Source: Oleispira sp. (GTDB taxonomy: Bacteria > Pseudomonadota > Gammaproteobacteria > Pseudomonadales > Oceanobacteraceae). Taken from it: a stretch of 64,000 bases of DNA. Made by a program: the position numbers and the translations under genes. Below are positions 6,175 through 10,066 of this stretch, piece after piece (the stretch's first letter is position 1; the number at the start of each line of letters is the position of its first letter). The notes under the pieces were generated by a model that saw only the letters and a list, made by a program, of their open reading frames with translations, did no database searches and had not been told where the DNA came from. The stretch covers positions 1 through 64,000 of the forward strand of contig JAESQF010000096.1 in assembly GCA_016765295.1 (NCBI GenBank). The letters are read 5' to 3'.

Positions 6175-6248
6175 GGTGCTCGATTATGCAATTAAGCAAG
6201 ATTGCTCTGCCCATAATCCCTCTCTAATTGATTAACGACCCATTGATA

Positions 6249-7637
6249 ATGACTGACCAAGCTGCTGACCAACAAAATTTATCTTTACGTACACCGCCGC
6301 ATTCAATAGACGCCGAGCAATCTGTTCTGGGTGGTTTATTATTGGATAATCGCGCTTGGGAATCAGTTTCAGAAGTATTAGAAGACACAGATTTTTATAG
6401 CCACAAGCACCGCAATATTTACCGTGCGATTAAGTCGTTAGTCGATCAAGAACAGCCGATTGATGTTGTTACCGTTGCCGAAGAATTAGAAGAGCTAGGT
6501 ACGCTAAGCGATGTGGGGGGTATCGCGTATTTAGGTGAACTCGCCGATATGACGCCTTCGACCGCCAACAGTGGTGCTTATGGCGTCATCGTTAAAGAAC
6601 GCTCGCAGCAACGTCGTTTAATCGAAGCCGCAGCCGATATATCACTTTCTGCCTATGAGCCAGAAGGTAAAAATTCCCTTGATATTCTTTCTGATGCTGA
6701 GCAAAAAATTGCTCAGATCGCCGAAGGTAATCGCAAAGAAGGTGGCCCTGTTATTGTTGGCCCCTTGCTAAAAAGCACACTAGATCAGTTAGACGAATTA
6801 TTTAATAAACCTGAAGGTTTGAGTGGTATAACGTCGGGTTTTACCGAAATTGATAACCGTACCTCTGGCTTCCAAAAAGCCGATATGATCGTAGTGGCAG
6901 GTCGTCCTTCGATGGGTAAAACCACCTACGCGATGAACTTGGTAGAAAATGCTTTAATCGCCACCAAGCGCCCTTGCATTGTATTTAGTATGGAGATGCC
7001 GTCTGAATCGATCGTTATGCGTATGTTATCTTCCATCGGCAAAATTGATCAGACTCGAATTCGAAGTGGTAAGTTAATTGAAGACGATTGGCCTAAGCTT
7101 TCGTCTGCGGTAAACATTCTAAAAGATTTACCTTTGTACATTGATGATACCCCAGCATTAACGCCACAAGATTTGCGCGCACGCTGTCGCAAAGTGTATC
7201 GTGAGAACGATAACGACCTTGCCCTTGTGATGGTCGACTATATGCAGCTAATGCAGGTTACAGGAGCTTCTGAGGGGCGTTCGCAAGAGATTTCTGAGAT
7301 CTCTCGTAGCATGAAGGCTATTGCCAAAGAATTTAGCTGCCCTATCATTGCCTTGTCTCAGTTAAACCGTGCTTTGGAGCAACGCCCCAATAAGCGCCCG
7401 GTAATGTCGGATCTACGTGAATCAGGCGCGATCGAGCAGGATGCCGATATTATCGCCTTTATTTATCGTGATGAAGTGTATAACGAAGATACCCCCGATA
7501 AAGGCATCGCCGAGATCATTACCGGCAAACACCGTAACGGCCCCATCGGCACCGACCGCTTAGCGTTCGTTGGTAAATATTCTCGCTTCGAGAATTTAGC
7601 AGCGGGCTATGAAGGCAATTGGGATGATGATGAATAA
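6249..7637 (+). CDS. dnaB: Replicative DNA helicase DnaB
   Basis: Hexameric 5'-3' helicase of the replication fork, 462 residues from the chosen ATG. The N-terminal domain begins PHSIDAEQSVLGGLLLDN. The RecA-like C-terminal domain carries Walker A GRPSMGKTT, Walker B region LALVMVDYMQLM, and SQLNRALEQRPNKRPVMSDLRESGAIEQDAD with the arginine finger region. The length matches the family (471 in E. coli). No strong ribosome-binding site is visible; a TTG at 6228 in the same frame is an alternative. A lambda P-like loader gene lies next door on the other strand. Confidence 0.96.
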   Translation: MTDQAADQQNLSLRTPPHSIDAEQSVLGGLLLDNRAWESVSEVLEDTDFYSHKHRNIYRAIKSLVDQEQPIDVVTVAEELEELGTLSDVGGIAYLGELADMTPSTANSGAYGVIVKERSQQRRLIEAAADISLSAYEPEGKNSLDILSDAEQKIAQIAEGNRKEGGPVIVGPLLKSTLDQLDELFNKPEGLSGITSGFTEIDNRTSGFQKADMIVVAGRPSMGKTTYAMNLVENALIATKRPCIVFSMEMPSESIVMRMLSSIGKIDQTRIRSGKLIEDDWPKLSSAVNILKDLPLYIDDTPALTPQDLRARCRKVYRENDNDLALVMVDYMQLMQVTGASEGRSQEISEISRSMKAIAKEFSCPIIALSQLNRALEQRPNKRPVMSDLRESGAIEQDADIIAFIYRDEVYNEDTPDKGIAEIITGKHRNGPIGTDRLAFVGKYSRFENLAAGYEGNWDDDE

Positions 7638-7732
7638 TCGGCAGGAAAGCCGATTATCACGAACTTTAGTTCGCCCGTAGGGCTGAATACACGGATGTAT
7701 GAAGTGAGTAGCTGTTTCTTTATTTAAGAAAC
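7634..7732 (+). other. Row of hairpins after dnaB
   Basis: Three inverted repeats follow one another. ATAATCGGC/GCCGATTAT (7634-7657) includes the dnaB stop codon. CGAACT/AGTTCG spans 7660-7673. GTTTCTT/AAGAAAC spans 7714-7732. None has a downstream T-run, so ordinary rho-independent termination is not shown. They could protect the dnaB mRNA 3' end or be part of a repeat element. Confidence 0.5.
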
Positions 7733-8024
7733 GCCGTGGCGCTTAAGCTTCCAACGATTCGCTCACAGATCGCTATTGGGCATCTCGTTCTGCGGCACGC
7801 TGTGAATACGTCGCTTCGCTCTCCCTGTAAGCTCGGCCACAGCATCCATGCTGCGGGACGGCCTTTAACAAGACACCCAATACCGATCCGCGAATCCAAG
7901 ATATTAATCCAGATACCCTTCATCAACTATCAAGGGCATGACGACTTATCCGTAGCGCATTAGCCGTTATTATTTTGAAGATATATTGCTATAGAATCTG
8001 ATAAAGCATTCGTGGTGATGTATT
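7733..8024. other. Non-coding stretch with inverted repeats, possible repeat remnant
   Basis: No convincing gene. A short open frame (7736-7963, +) has no ribosome-binding site, no recognisable family and a composition unlike its neighbours. The stretch contains GCTTAAGC (7742-7749) and the palindromic hairpin CAGCAT-CC-ATGCTG (7840-7853). A possible weak promoter TTGAAG-N17-CTGATA (7975-8003) points at the structured element that follows. It looks like a decayed or dispersed intergenic element, which a genome-wide repeat search would settle. Confidence 0.4.
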
Positions 8025-8129
8025 AGGTGGTTCGTTTTGGGGGCTTCCCGCAGCAGGGGCTGTGGAGAGCCCCCATGGTGAATACCTGCAACGGCTGGGG
8101 TTCACGGCGTCCCTCAAAAGGAACTACCT
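8025..8129 (+). ncRNA. Candidate structured RNA, three-way junction, unknown family
   Basis: An outer helix pairs 8025-8038 with 8116-8129 (13 of 14 positions, one of them G·U). Inside, hairpin one is GGGGGCT/AGCCCCC (8039-8045 with 8068-8074), a 2x2 internal loop, then CCGCAGC/GCTGTGG with an AGGG loop. Hairpin two is GTGAA/TTCAC (8078-8082 with 8101-8105). Both non-Watson-Crick pairs are G·U when read on the plus strand and would be A·C on the minus strand, which argues that the plus strand is transcribed. It matches no riboswitch, 6S, SRP or tmRNA consensus that I know. A 3' T-run is absent. Confidence 0.55.
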
Positions 8130-8175
8130 GATGCTGCGCATGTAAAACCTTAGCGTTACGGCACTTAACAAATAG

Positions 8176-8868
8176 CTAAAGTCCAGAATCCTTAAGAAGC
8201 TGCTTCATTTTCTTCTGTAAATCTTTGCGCTCAATAGGCTTTTCAATATGGTCAGGCAGCGCTTTCGGCAACTTAATTGTAATATCTTCACCCGCAGCAA
8301 CTCTCTCGATCAGCATCGCATAATTACGTTCAAATACAGGAAAGGCTTTCGCTTCAATACTATTAGCTAAGAAGAACCAATCACTAGAACGGCCGGCGTA
8401 ATAAACAGCAGGATGAGTCCATTTATATTCTTTCTTTGGAGAAGGTGCACGACAGGCTTCGATATAAGCGGAATGAGCATCGGGCATGCCCAATAATTTG
8501 TGAGCCGATGAGTTACAGGCTTCAACCACATCATGAACATTGGGTAAAAACTTTTGTTGTTTAACCACTTGCTCAGCGGCGAACATAATCGTTTCCGCAG
8601 GGTAGTCCAACAGTAAGCGGGCCCACAATTGCTTTGCCATAATCACCGTATCGTGATCAGGAAAGGCTTTTAGAAATTGATTATGATAATTAAAACGGAA
8701 CAGTTCAAAAATCTGATTAATCGCAGATTTCTGATCAATATCTAATGGCCGTTGAGCGCGATGTGCTTTCTCGCTACCAGTCTGTGTCGGTGAGACGCTG
8801 TCTGCTTGCTGCAGCTGTTGCGTAACCTGGTTCAGAATTGGATTGAGTACCGCTTTGCGATCCCGCAT
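8176..8868 (-). CDS. Lambda P-like replicative helicase loader
   Basis: A 230-residue protein resembling replication protein P of lambdoid phages. The core runs from QIFELFRFNYHNQFLKAFP through a QLWARLLLDYPAETI segment to QQKFLPNVHDVVEAC (compare FLPSPGQFVAWC in lambda P), a WTHPAVYYAGRSSDWFFLANS block, and VAAGEDITIKLPKALP near the C-terminus. Lambda P binds DnaB and delivers it to the origin. ATG 8868 was chosen because AGGTGG lies 8 bases upstream; a GTG at 8880 is possible. It overlaps the upstream DnaT-like gene by about 95 bases, so translation is coupled, and it converges on dnaB. It is probably a domesticated chromosomal loader, since no other phage genes are present. Confidence 0.75.
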   Translation of the reverse strand: MRDRKAVLNPILNQVTQQLQQADSVSPTQTGSEKAHRAQRPLDIDQKSAINQIFELFRFNYHNQFLKAFPDHDTVIMAKQLWARLLLDYPAETIMFAAEQVVKQQKFLPNVHDVVEACNSSAHKLLGMPDAHSAYIEACRAPSPKKEYKWTHPAVYYAGRSSDWFFLANSIEAKAFPVFERNYAMLIERVAAGEDITIKLPKALPDHIEKPIERKDLQKKMKQLLKDSGL

Positions 8869-10066
8869 TTGCCTTTCCACCTATTTGAGAGCCTTGGTTT
8901 AACTGCCTAGCCCACTGCTGCTTAACATACTGTAAGAATTTACTATTCCAACTGGTTTGCAACTGATTGGAATCACGCCAATACAATACAAACTCACCAA
9001 TTAGTCCCTGTGCATATTGCAGATCAATATGCGCCATAGCCAGAATATCATAACAGTCATTATCTGGCTGCCAATCATCACCAATGCGTGTGGGTACTGA
9101 AGAATGCTCTAGTGATGATGAGTAACGCGCCCATTGCTGGCGTGCATGCTGAATAAATTTGGTATTCCAGGTTTTATGCGCATCACCGCGTTCTTGCCAA
9201 TACAACACAAACTCAGGAATCGAATCTTGAATGAATTGTGGATCAATACCCGCACGTTGCAAAATTTGCTGCGCATCTAAACTCGGTTGCCACTGTTGAG
9301 CAATCGGCCCTGCTTCTTCACGACGCGCCTGAAAACGCTCTTGGCGATCAGGAGTTTGGGTATGACTGGTACTAAAAGACGCTTTCGCCGCTATTTTTTG
9401 CTGCTTTTTATGAGCATCGGTTTGGGTATAGACCCAATGCTTTTTGATATAGCGGAAGAACTGGGTATTCCAGTCATTACGGTTATTGCCATTTTCTCGC
9501 GCTTGCAGAATAAATTCATCCAACTTAGACAAACTATAGCTATCGGGAATTCCGTGCTGCTGTAGTCGATTCAAACCATCACGGGTCGGCTGCCACTGCT
9601 GCTGCATCGGTTGCTTTGAGGCTGCAGACTGCTGCATCATTTGATTAGACATCATCTGTCTAGTCGTTGATTGAGAAGCCGCTGACTTAGCCGCTATTGG
9701 TTGCCCCTGCTCGGTATTGGCTTGCGGTGCAGGCTGCTGCAGTGTTTGCCCTTCAGCCTGAGTTGATTGCTGCGCAAGAACTTGATTAGGAAAGCAAAAA
9801 ATCAACTGCGGCGCATCAGGAAATAGCGGCGAGATAAGCTGCACTAAACCCTTTTCATGCAAATGTCGTAAGACCAAGCGTATCTTCTGATCATCCCAGA
9901 ATGGAAAGACTTGGCGCACTTGTTCATTATTGATGTGCCACTGGATACCGCCCAAAGCCTGAGCAATATCATTCAGCCAAGTAAGGGCTATCGCCTCTTC
10001 CAAGCCAATGGTTGCGGCAAGTGCTGGGGAGAAAACCAAGGTTTTATCAGCAATCAATGGGTGCAT
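8774..10066 (-). CDS. Primosomal protein with three DnaT domains
   Basis: A 430-residue protein. Residues 1-95 look like a winged-helix domain (ALTWLNDIAQALGG, then KIRLVLRHLHEKGLVQLI). Residues 96-157 are a Gln/Ala/Ser-rich linker. Three tandem DnaT-type domains follow at about 158-211, 259-313 and 332-386, each opening with WQP and ending with a W.(T/S).(F).(Q/R)Y/HA-type segment (NDWNTQFFRYIKKHW, KTWNTKFIQHARQQW, TSWNSKFLQYVKQQW). E. coli DnaT has one such domain, which binds ssDNA and hands it over in PriA/DnaT/DnaC restart. It is transcribed divergently from alr and overlaps the lambda P-like gene. A DnaB-loading or replication-restart role is inferred from domains plus dnaB linkage. Confidence 0.75.
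   Translation of the reverse strand: MHPLIADKTLVFSPALAATIGLEEAIALTWLNDIAQALGGIQWHINNEQVRQVFPFWDDQKIRLVLRHLHEKGLVQLISPLFPDAPQLIFCFPNQVLAQQSTQAEGQTLQQPAPQANTEQGQPIAAKSAASQSTTRQMMSNQMMQQSAASKQPMQQQWQPTRDGLNRLQQHGIPDSYSLSKLDEFILQARENGNNRNDWNTQFFRYIKKHWVYTQTDAHKKQQKIAAKASFSTSHTQTPDRQERFQARREEAGPIAQQWQPSLDAQQILQRAGIDPQFIQDSIPEFVLYWQERGDAHKTWNTKFIQHARQQWARYSSSLEHSSVPTRIGDDWQPDNDCYDILAMAHIDLQYAQGLIGEFVLYWRDSNQLQTSWNSKFLQYVKQQWARQLNQGSQIGGKANAGSQSGTQSNSEPGYATAAASRQRLTDTDW

Follow-up and report, generated by a model that had tools for sequence, protein, structure and literature searches.

A worn repeat copy beside dnaB in Oleispira belongs to a large class of dispersed, structured repeats with CsrA-type loop motifs

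Does the strongly folding stretch between dnaB and a helicase-loader gene of Oleispira sp. carry an RNA of its own, or does it represent something more widespread? In the window, the whole 64,000-nucleotide stretch of DNA that was analysed, the preliminary description had placed an unassigned structured RNA of about 105 nt at 8025-8129, probably made from the plus strand. The structure there is real and unusually stable, with a minimum free energy (MFE) of -55.3 kcal/mol on the plus strand against a mean of -39.66 (sd 3.73) for dinucleotide shuffles (z -4.19), of which 0 of 200 were as stable. The fold contains the 14-position outer helix as it had been described, with one mismatch (G.G) and one G.U. 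The first hairpin is present as well, but as 8+7 pairs round a 1x1 mismatch in the MFE fold and not as 7+7 base pairs round a 2x2 loop, and the second, GTGAA/TTCAC, forms in this copy but is no family feature, TTCAC being across 20 copies the bulge of another, covarying helix. The extent proposed lies inside the element but is too short: our model R1, which was built from 20 Oleispira copies, ends at 8015 and 8139 (98.3 bits; a second model introduced below, R2, gives 38.9 bits over 8033-8122). In this right copy, 8015-8139(+), the outer helix P1 pairs 8015-8038 with 8116-8139, hairpin H1 pairs 8048-8054 with 8059-8065 round a loop AGGG, and the family-type hairpin H2 pairs GCCCCC (8069-8074) with GGG (8098-8100) and GGC (8106-8108), leaving TTCAC (8101-8105) as a bulge; this family-type fold is 7 kcal/mol worse than the MFE (-58.2 against -65.2). 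The element lies, as had been said, between the 3' ends of convergent neighbours, dnaB (6228-7637, plus strand; Pfam DnaB and DnaB_C) and a helicase-loader-like gene of 234 aa (8176-8880, minus strand; Pfam Phage_lambda_P, 40 bits against a cut-off of 26). At gathering score Rfam finds a tRNA and no other family in the window, in accordance with the view that no known RNA class is involved.

The element is not confined to this place. BLAST of 7961-8160 against its own genome returns 38 places at E<=10, and the 13 at E<=0.001 together with R1 matches in all six genomes of the genus give the high copy number of a dispersed intergenic palindromic repeat. At E<=1, where both-strand matches to one place are included, R1 counts 72 in the window's genome and 29, 46, 49, 56 and 17 in the other five; the window's genome holds dozens of copies. 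With copies at many unrelated loci, the idea of an independent single-locus sRNA does not stand. The preliminary description had set against itself a dispersed repeat without conserved pairing: a dispersed repeat it is, but compensatory changes keep the pairing. The comparison of homologues that it had proposed, made on 20 Oleispira copies, gives both-side changes in 12 of 26 pairs (29 cells, where shuffles have 8.7 and none of 500 reaches as many), while sliding the pairing partner leaves at most 3 pairs. RNAalifold adds a helix of GCC-NNN with NNN-(UUCAC)-GGC, in which four of the six pairs have both-side changes in 4, 7, 3 and 5 of the 20 sequences.

A larger set was drawn from 46 sources (the window, 40 stretches round listed hits and five earlier loci), whose 112 matches were reduced to 89 non-overlapping copies of distinct sequence, each on its better strand and with orthologous copies in sister genomes counted separately. 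Over 23 P1 pairs these copies have 1564 Watson-Crick, 232 G.U and 19 A.C cells, a G.U fraction of 0.924, compared with a mean of 0.729 and a maximum of 0.805 in 20,000 null simulations, into which the choice of strand was built because the search keeps the better strand of each copy. The outer helix is therefore kept on one strand, as RNA or as single-stranded DNA, two states that the bias does not separate, and the wobble argument first made for the plus strand of a single copy holds throughout the family. The reported element has real, strand-specific, RNA-like structure but belongs, as a worn copy, to a large repeat class, and it is the class, not the window's copy, that is the interesting object. 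As far as can be read from sequence, family copies share P1 and the inner hairpins H1 and H2, pair on one strand, carry a CsrA-type loop motif and often stand as outward pairs near gene 3' ends.

On the sense strand, 87 of the 89 Oleispira copies have CA(N)GGA, 64 of them twice or more; on the antisense strand 5 copies have it. The mean is 1.80 per copy against 0.21 in shuffles. When 85 copies were folded, GGA lay in 106 of 206 sense hairpin loops but in 4 of 211 antisense ones, and it was absent from every MFE hairpin loop in 12 of the copies. Hexamers of the form ANGGAN are closed by three or more pairs in 112 of 225 cases, other hexamers in 534 of 8493, and the closing pair of these hexaloops is C-G at 70 of 83 distinct sites; copies of the class typically offer a C-G-closed ANGGAN hexaloop at two or more sites. 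The SELEX consensus of CsrA is given as RUACARGGAUGU with ACA and GGA fully conserved; in most ligands AC and GU pair round a loop of six bases, and for RsmE the motif is ANGGAN (accessible text of PMC7652899). The H2 hairpin, UACANGGAYGUA, matches this consensus closely. The right copy of the window is one of two among the 89 with no CA(N)GGA on either strand: its H1 loop reads AGGG and its H2 carries an insert. All 10 genomes checked, that of the window among them, encode CsrA. By lists compared by eye, so do 49 of 53 element-positive and 186 of 221 element-negative genomes of the class; one genome that is 98% complete and has nine matches gave no CsrA hit, and co-occurrence of the element with csrA is weak.

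The same architecture was found in other genera. The H2 pattern GCCTACANGGAYGTATTCACGGC is present in 17 of 369 genomes of the class (the reversed control gave 0 among the genomes listed), with the sample's highest count, 152 + 142 = 294 exact matches, in the 5.1-Mb genome of a gammaproteobacterium (G283); the joint pattern CANGGAYG..GCCTACANGGA occurs 53 + 55 times there and 27 + 29 times in G117 (control 0). Twenty loci were taken from this pattern search, 19 in other genera and one (L116) in the genome of the window; round the core of these loci lie 13 to 43 spanning pairs that are unrelated in sequence. Seventeen of the cores were aligned; L115 and L116 were left out for odd folds and L125 for its closeness to L108, and L117, whose fold is odd too, stayed in. 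In these 17 cores 91.3% of the cells are paired, 17 of 23 pairs have both-side changes, and covariation is 0.637 against 0.168 when shuffled and at most 0.185 when slid. H2 is invariant in this alignment because it was the search pattern. The GGA of H1 lay outside that pattern and is also invariant, with a C-G loop-closing pair in 15 of 17 cores, while the stem varies freely (7 C-G, 6 G-C, 2 U-A and 1 A-U at one pair); MFE folds of the 20 single sequences place GGA in the apical loop of H1 in 17 and form the full family H2 in 7. Stem sequences and lengths differ widely between genomes.

Model R2 was built from the 17 cores. At E<=1e-4 it has matches in 92 of the 244 genomes sampled from the order and in 53 of 274 from the class; the E-values of both models are rough, and both models lean towards motif-bearing copies. 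At E<=1e-6 R2 matches 13 of 200 genomes of the phylum, a sample not split by class, and all 13 lie within the same class. As 17 to 24 candidates were scored per genome in searches of more than 40 genomes, per-genome match counts are lower bounds. In a genus inferred to be one of Pseudomonas (g343), matches at E<=0.001 occur in 14 of 25 genomes, and the 19 loci read out of 20 (L169 was left out) differ in their H2 stem but have the same loops. One 75-base core had no match in plasmids, phages or E. coli. By reading, the 20 loci of g343 (L163-L182) have common flanks, GGAGGCC before and TTTTTCGCC..GGCGAAAAACCGGATG after, and a longer unit may include the repeat there. Six one-strand R2 matches at a spacing of about 227 bases in one genome (G428:C1:94432-95643) are possibly a tandem array of the element. 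The outer flanks of left-type copies (for example L003, L206 and L213) read as a common tail, AGTGCGGTT..AAACCAAAACCG, which could form a further hairpin outside the composite.

Composite here means two copies set back to back. Of 54 Oleispira units, 35 are pairs and 19 single, and the sense strands point outward in all 35 pairs; among the matches listed for five genomes of Pseudomonadaceae, some weak ones left out, outward orientation is seen in 34 of 38 close pairs. Because each strand of a composite carries one copy, a transcript that runs through it, from whichever side, passes first an antisense and then a sense copy. An ORF of at least 100 aa overlaps 4 of the 54 units. Gene context, taken from longest-ORF calls of at least 100 aa with copies of one place in sister genomes counted separately, could be read for 48 units after six with one geneless flank were dropped: 17 lie between rightward genes, 18 between leftward genes, 13 between convergent and none between divergent genes. 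The 15 single copies between co-directional genes show no strand preference, with 7 in the sense direction of those genes and 8 in the antisense direction. In two of four Pseudomonadaceae loci a sense copy precedes a frame, which we take to be gcvP or cysN. Context in other genera and in g343 (6 divergent among 30 non-overlapping cases, with 13 of 43 overlapped) was not used, the crude ORF caller there producing overlaps with many likely false ORFs.

The reading that we favour, by a modest degree of belief and on the pattern of loops, strands and positions, is that this is a dispersed modular repeat which makes CsrA/RsmA-binding RNA near gene ends, the repeats possibly acting as a distributed CsrA sponge. 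The sense strand would be transcribed, probably by read-through from a neighbouring gene; hairpins in the sense RNA would offer ANGGAN hexaloops to the CsrA/RsmA dimer; and the copies would jointly titrate CsrA or else recruit it for the protection or marking of transcript ends. More tentatively, gammaproteobacterial chromosomes could carry such a sponge, with more than 100 dispersed structured repeats in some genomes, two SELEX-grade hexaloops per RNA and, often, outward pairs exposing one from either side. If this were true, a repeat family would govern how much of a global post-transcriptional regulator is free, and, should optimal CsrA hairpins be many-copy in the 92 matching genomes of the order, the amount of free CsrA would vary with repeat load and with transcription past gene ends across the genome. 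A function would thereby also be found for a repeat class whose sole Rfam matches in the loci scanned are weak and lie on the opposite strand.

CsrA titration is usually described with a few dedicated sRNAs. CsrB/CsrC and RsmX/Y/Z, which titrate CsrA/RsmA, resemble the repeat in having several GGA-loop hairpins that match the CsrA consensus (accessible text of PMC7652899), but they are dedicated sRNA genes, whereas the repeat here is dispersed and has a long outer helix. The Rfam models of CsrB, RsmX/Y/Z and TwoAYGGAY had no match in the window at gathering score or in 19 loci of the repeat class at E<=1, a difference that separates the element also from the TwoAYGGAY RNA motif of Weinberg et al. 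(2010), which reportedly possesses two terminal loops. Two AYGGAY loops are also what the name suggests, and gammaproteobacteria are among the groups for which the motif is listed (accessible text of PMC2864571). Ysr224 (RF02770), a Yersinia sRNA whose reverse-complemented consensus contains the H1 and H2 motifs, has weak core matches in eight loci, the best of them scoring 31.6 bits (E 0.0027), but these stay far below its gathering score of 70 and are in all eight on the opposite strand. In the literature, judged by titles and the starts of abstracts with subscription papers mostly outside reach, no tie between a dispersed repeat and CsrA was met except a remark that intergenic sequences, among them a long palindromic region, came down with Rsm proteins of P. 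putida (accessible text of PMC7937890). The pull-down is suggestive, and those sequences may belong to the repeat class; if the sponge exists, it might explain their presence there. An integron attC site was also considered for the long inverted repeat; the attC boxes were not seen by eye.

The strongest competitor, which we hold unlikely and yet worth weighing, is an ordinary palindromic repeat of REP/BIME/ERIC/YPAL type that serves or tolerates transcript ends, as end structure, RNase target or stabiliser, its GGA loops being meant for another protein or for none. YPAL/RU-2, ERIC and REP/BIME are likewise dispersed, palindromic, intergenic and foldable as RNA (accessible parts of PMC2229807, PMC3733652 and PMC2267715), and other palindromic repeats are known downstream of genes and co-transcribed with them (PMC3733652, PMC2229807, same parts), which, with the lack of units between divergent genes and of strand preference among single copies, speaks for this explanation. 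It leaves unexplained why ANGGAN loops on one strand and their C-G closing pair are kept while stems vary; the accessible descriptions of these families mention no CsrA hexaloop (PMC2229807, PMC3733652, PMC2267715; CsrA is absent from the accessible text of the last), and it is by these descriptions that we set them apart.

In REP/RAYT systems and at the ends of IS200/IS605 elements it is hairpins of DNA that a transposase or recombinase recognises, and G.T pairs are better than A.C in single-stranded DNA too. A mobile repeat recognised in this manner would account for dispersed copies, outward pairs, replaced inner modules and the wobble bias alike. We nevertheless consider it improbable: the loop is the RNA motif of CsrA, and the wide differences in stems between genomes count against such recognition.

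At the dnaB locus itself, the right copy is one half of a composite whose second copy lies 126 bases to its left on the minus strand (7768-7888; R1 86.9 bits, R2 46.3 bits over 7785-7870), with its sense strand pointing away from the right copy and two CA(N)GGA motifs kept. Including outer tails, the composite spans about 7729-8162; by reading, the left tail is AAACGCCGT (7729-7737), common to many outer flanks of other copies, and the right one ACGGC (8158-8162), in many other copies ACGGCGTT. An imperfect inverted repeat, ATGACGACTTAT..ATTAGCCGTTAT, was read between the copies (7938-7970). It was considered as a bidirectional terminator, a reading dropped because a consensus scan of 7620-8200 shows no terminator-like site and 5 of 35 composites (10 loosely) have a clear GACGGC..GCCGTC central hairpin, which is thus no general feature. 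The stop codon of dnaB overlaps with a hairpin whose AGGAAA loop has a C-G closing pair (7634-7657, plus strand; fold of 7633-7716 with z -2.45, 5 of 200 shuffles as stable), and TACACGGATGTA at 7688-7699(+), a hairpin in the centroid fold and absent from the MFE, is the sole match of the window to TACANGGANGTA (0.04 expected; 4 of 100 shuffles contain one). On the CsrA-binding reading the right copy, its motif lost, should bind CsrA poorly or not at all, while the motif survives in its left partner and in the dnaB 3' region; if this locus binds CsrA, it would do so through these two rather than through the copy first reported.

A related Oleispira MAG (L031) also has a composite at this site; its inner module is a different one, and P1 shows a compensatory change from G-C to A-U. 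In the other three Oleispira- or Thalassolituus-titled loci compared (L032, L033 and L034), R1 has no match between dnaB and the loader gene; their gaps hold other DNA, so that no clean empty site speaks for insertion. That an independent sRNA or antisense gene sits here is very improbable, for although strong fold, strand-specific pairing and the composite in L031 would suit one, many copies lie at unrelated loci, the gaps of L032-L034 have none, the inner module of the right copy is replaced with its motif lost, and neither the promoter suggested near 7975-8003 nor a terminator appears in a consensus scan of 7620-8200 (0 sigma-70-like and 0 intrinsic-terminator-like sites; shuffles average 1.2 and 0.4).

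The two genes convergent with dnaB (8176-10066, minus strand) form a helicase-loader pair, the second of 430 aa with three DnaT-domain stretches. Close relatives of the first occur in 24 loci with mostly Oceanospirillaceae-type contig titles (Oleispira, Thalassolituus, Oceanobacter, Bacterioplanes and similar), the closest being an Oleispira MAG. Two ORFs within 7720-7963, of 68 aa on the minus and 75 aa on the plus strand, overlap the left copy and are probably spurious; such repeats may be annotated elsewhere as small hypothetical proteins.
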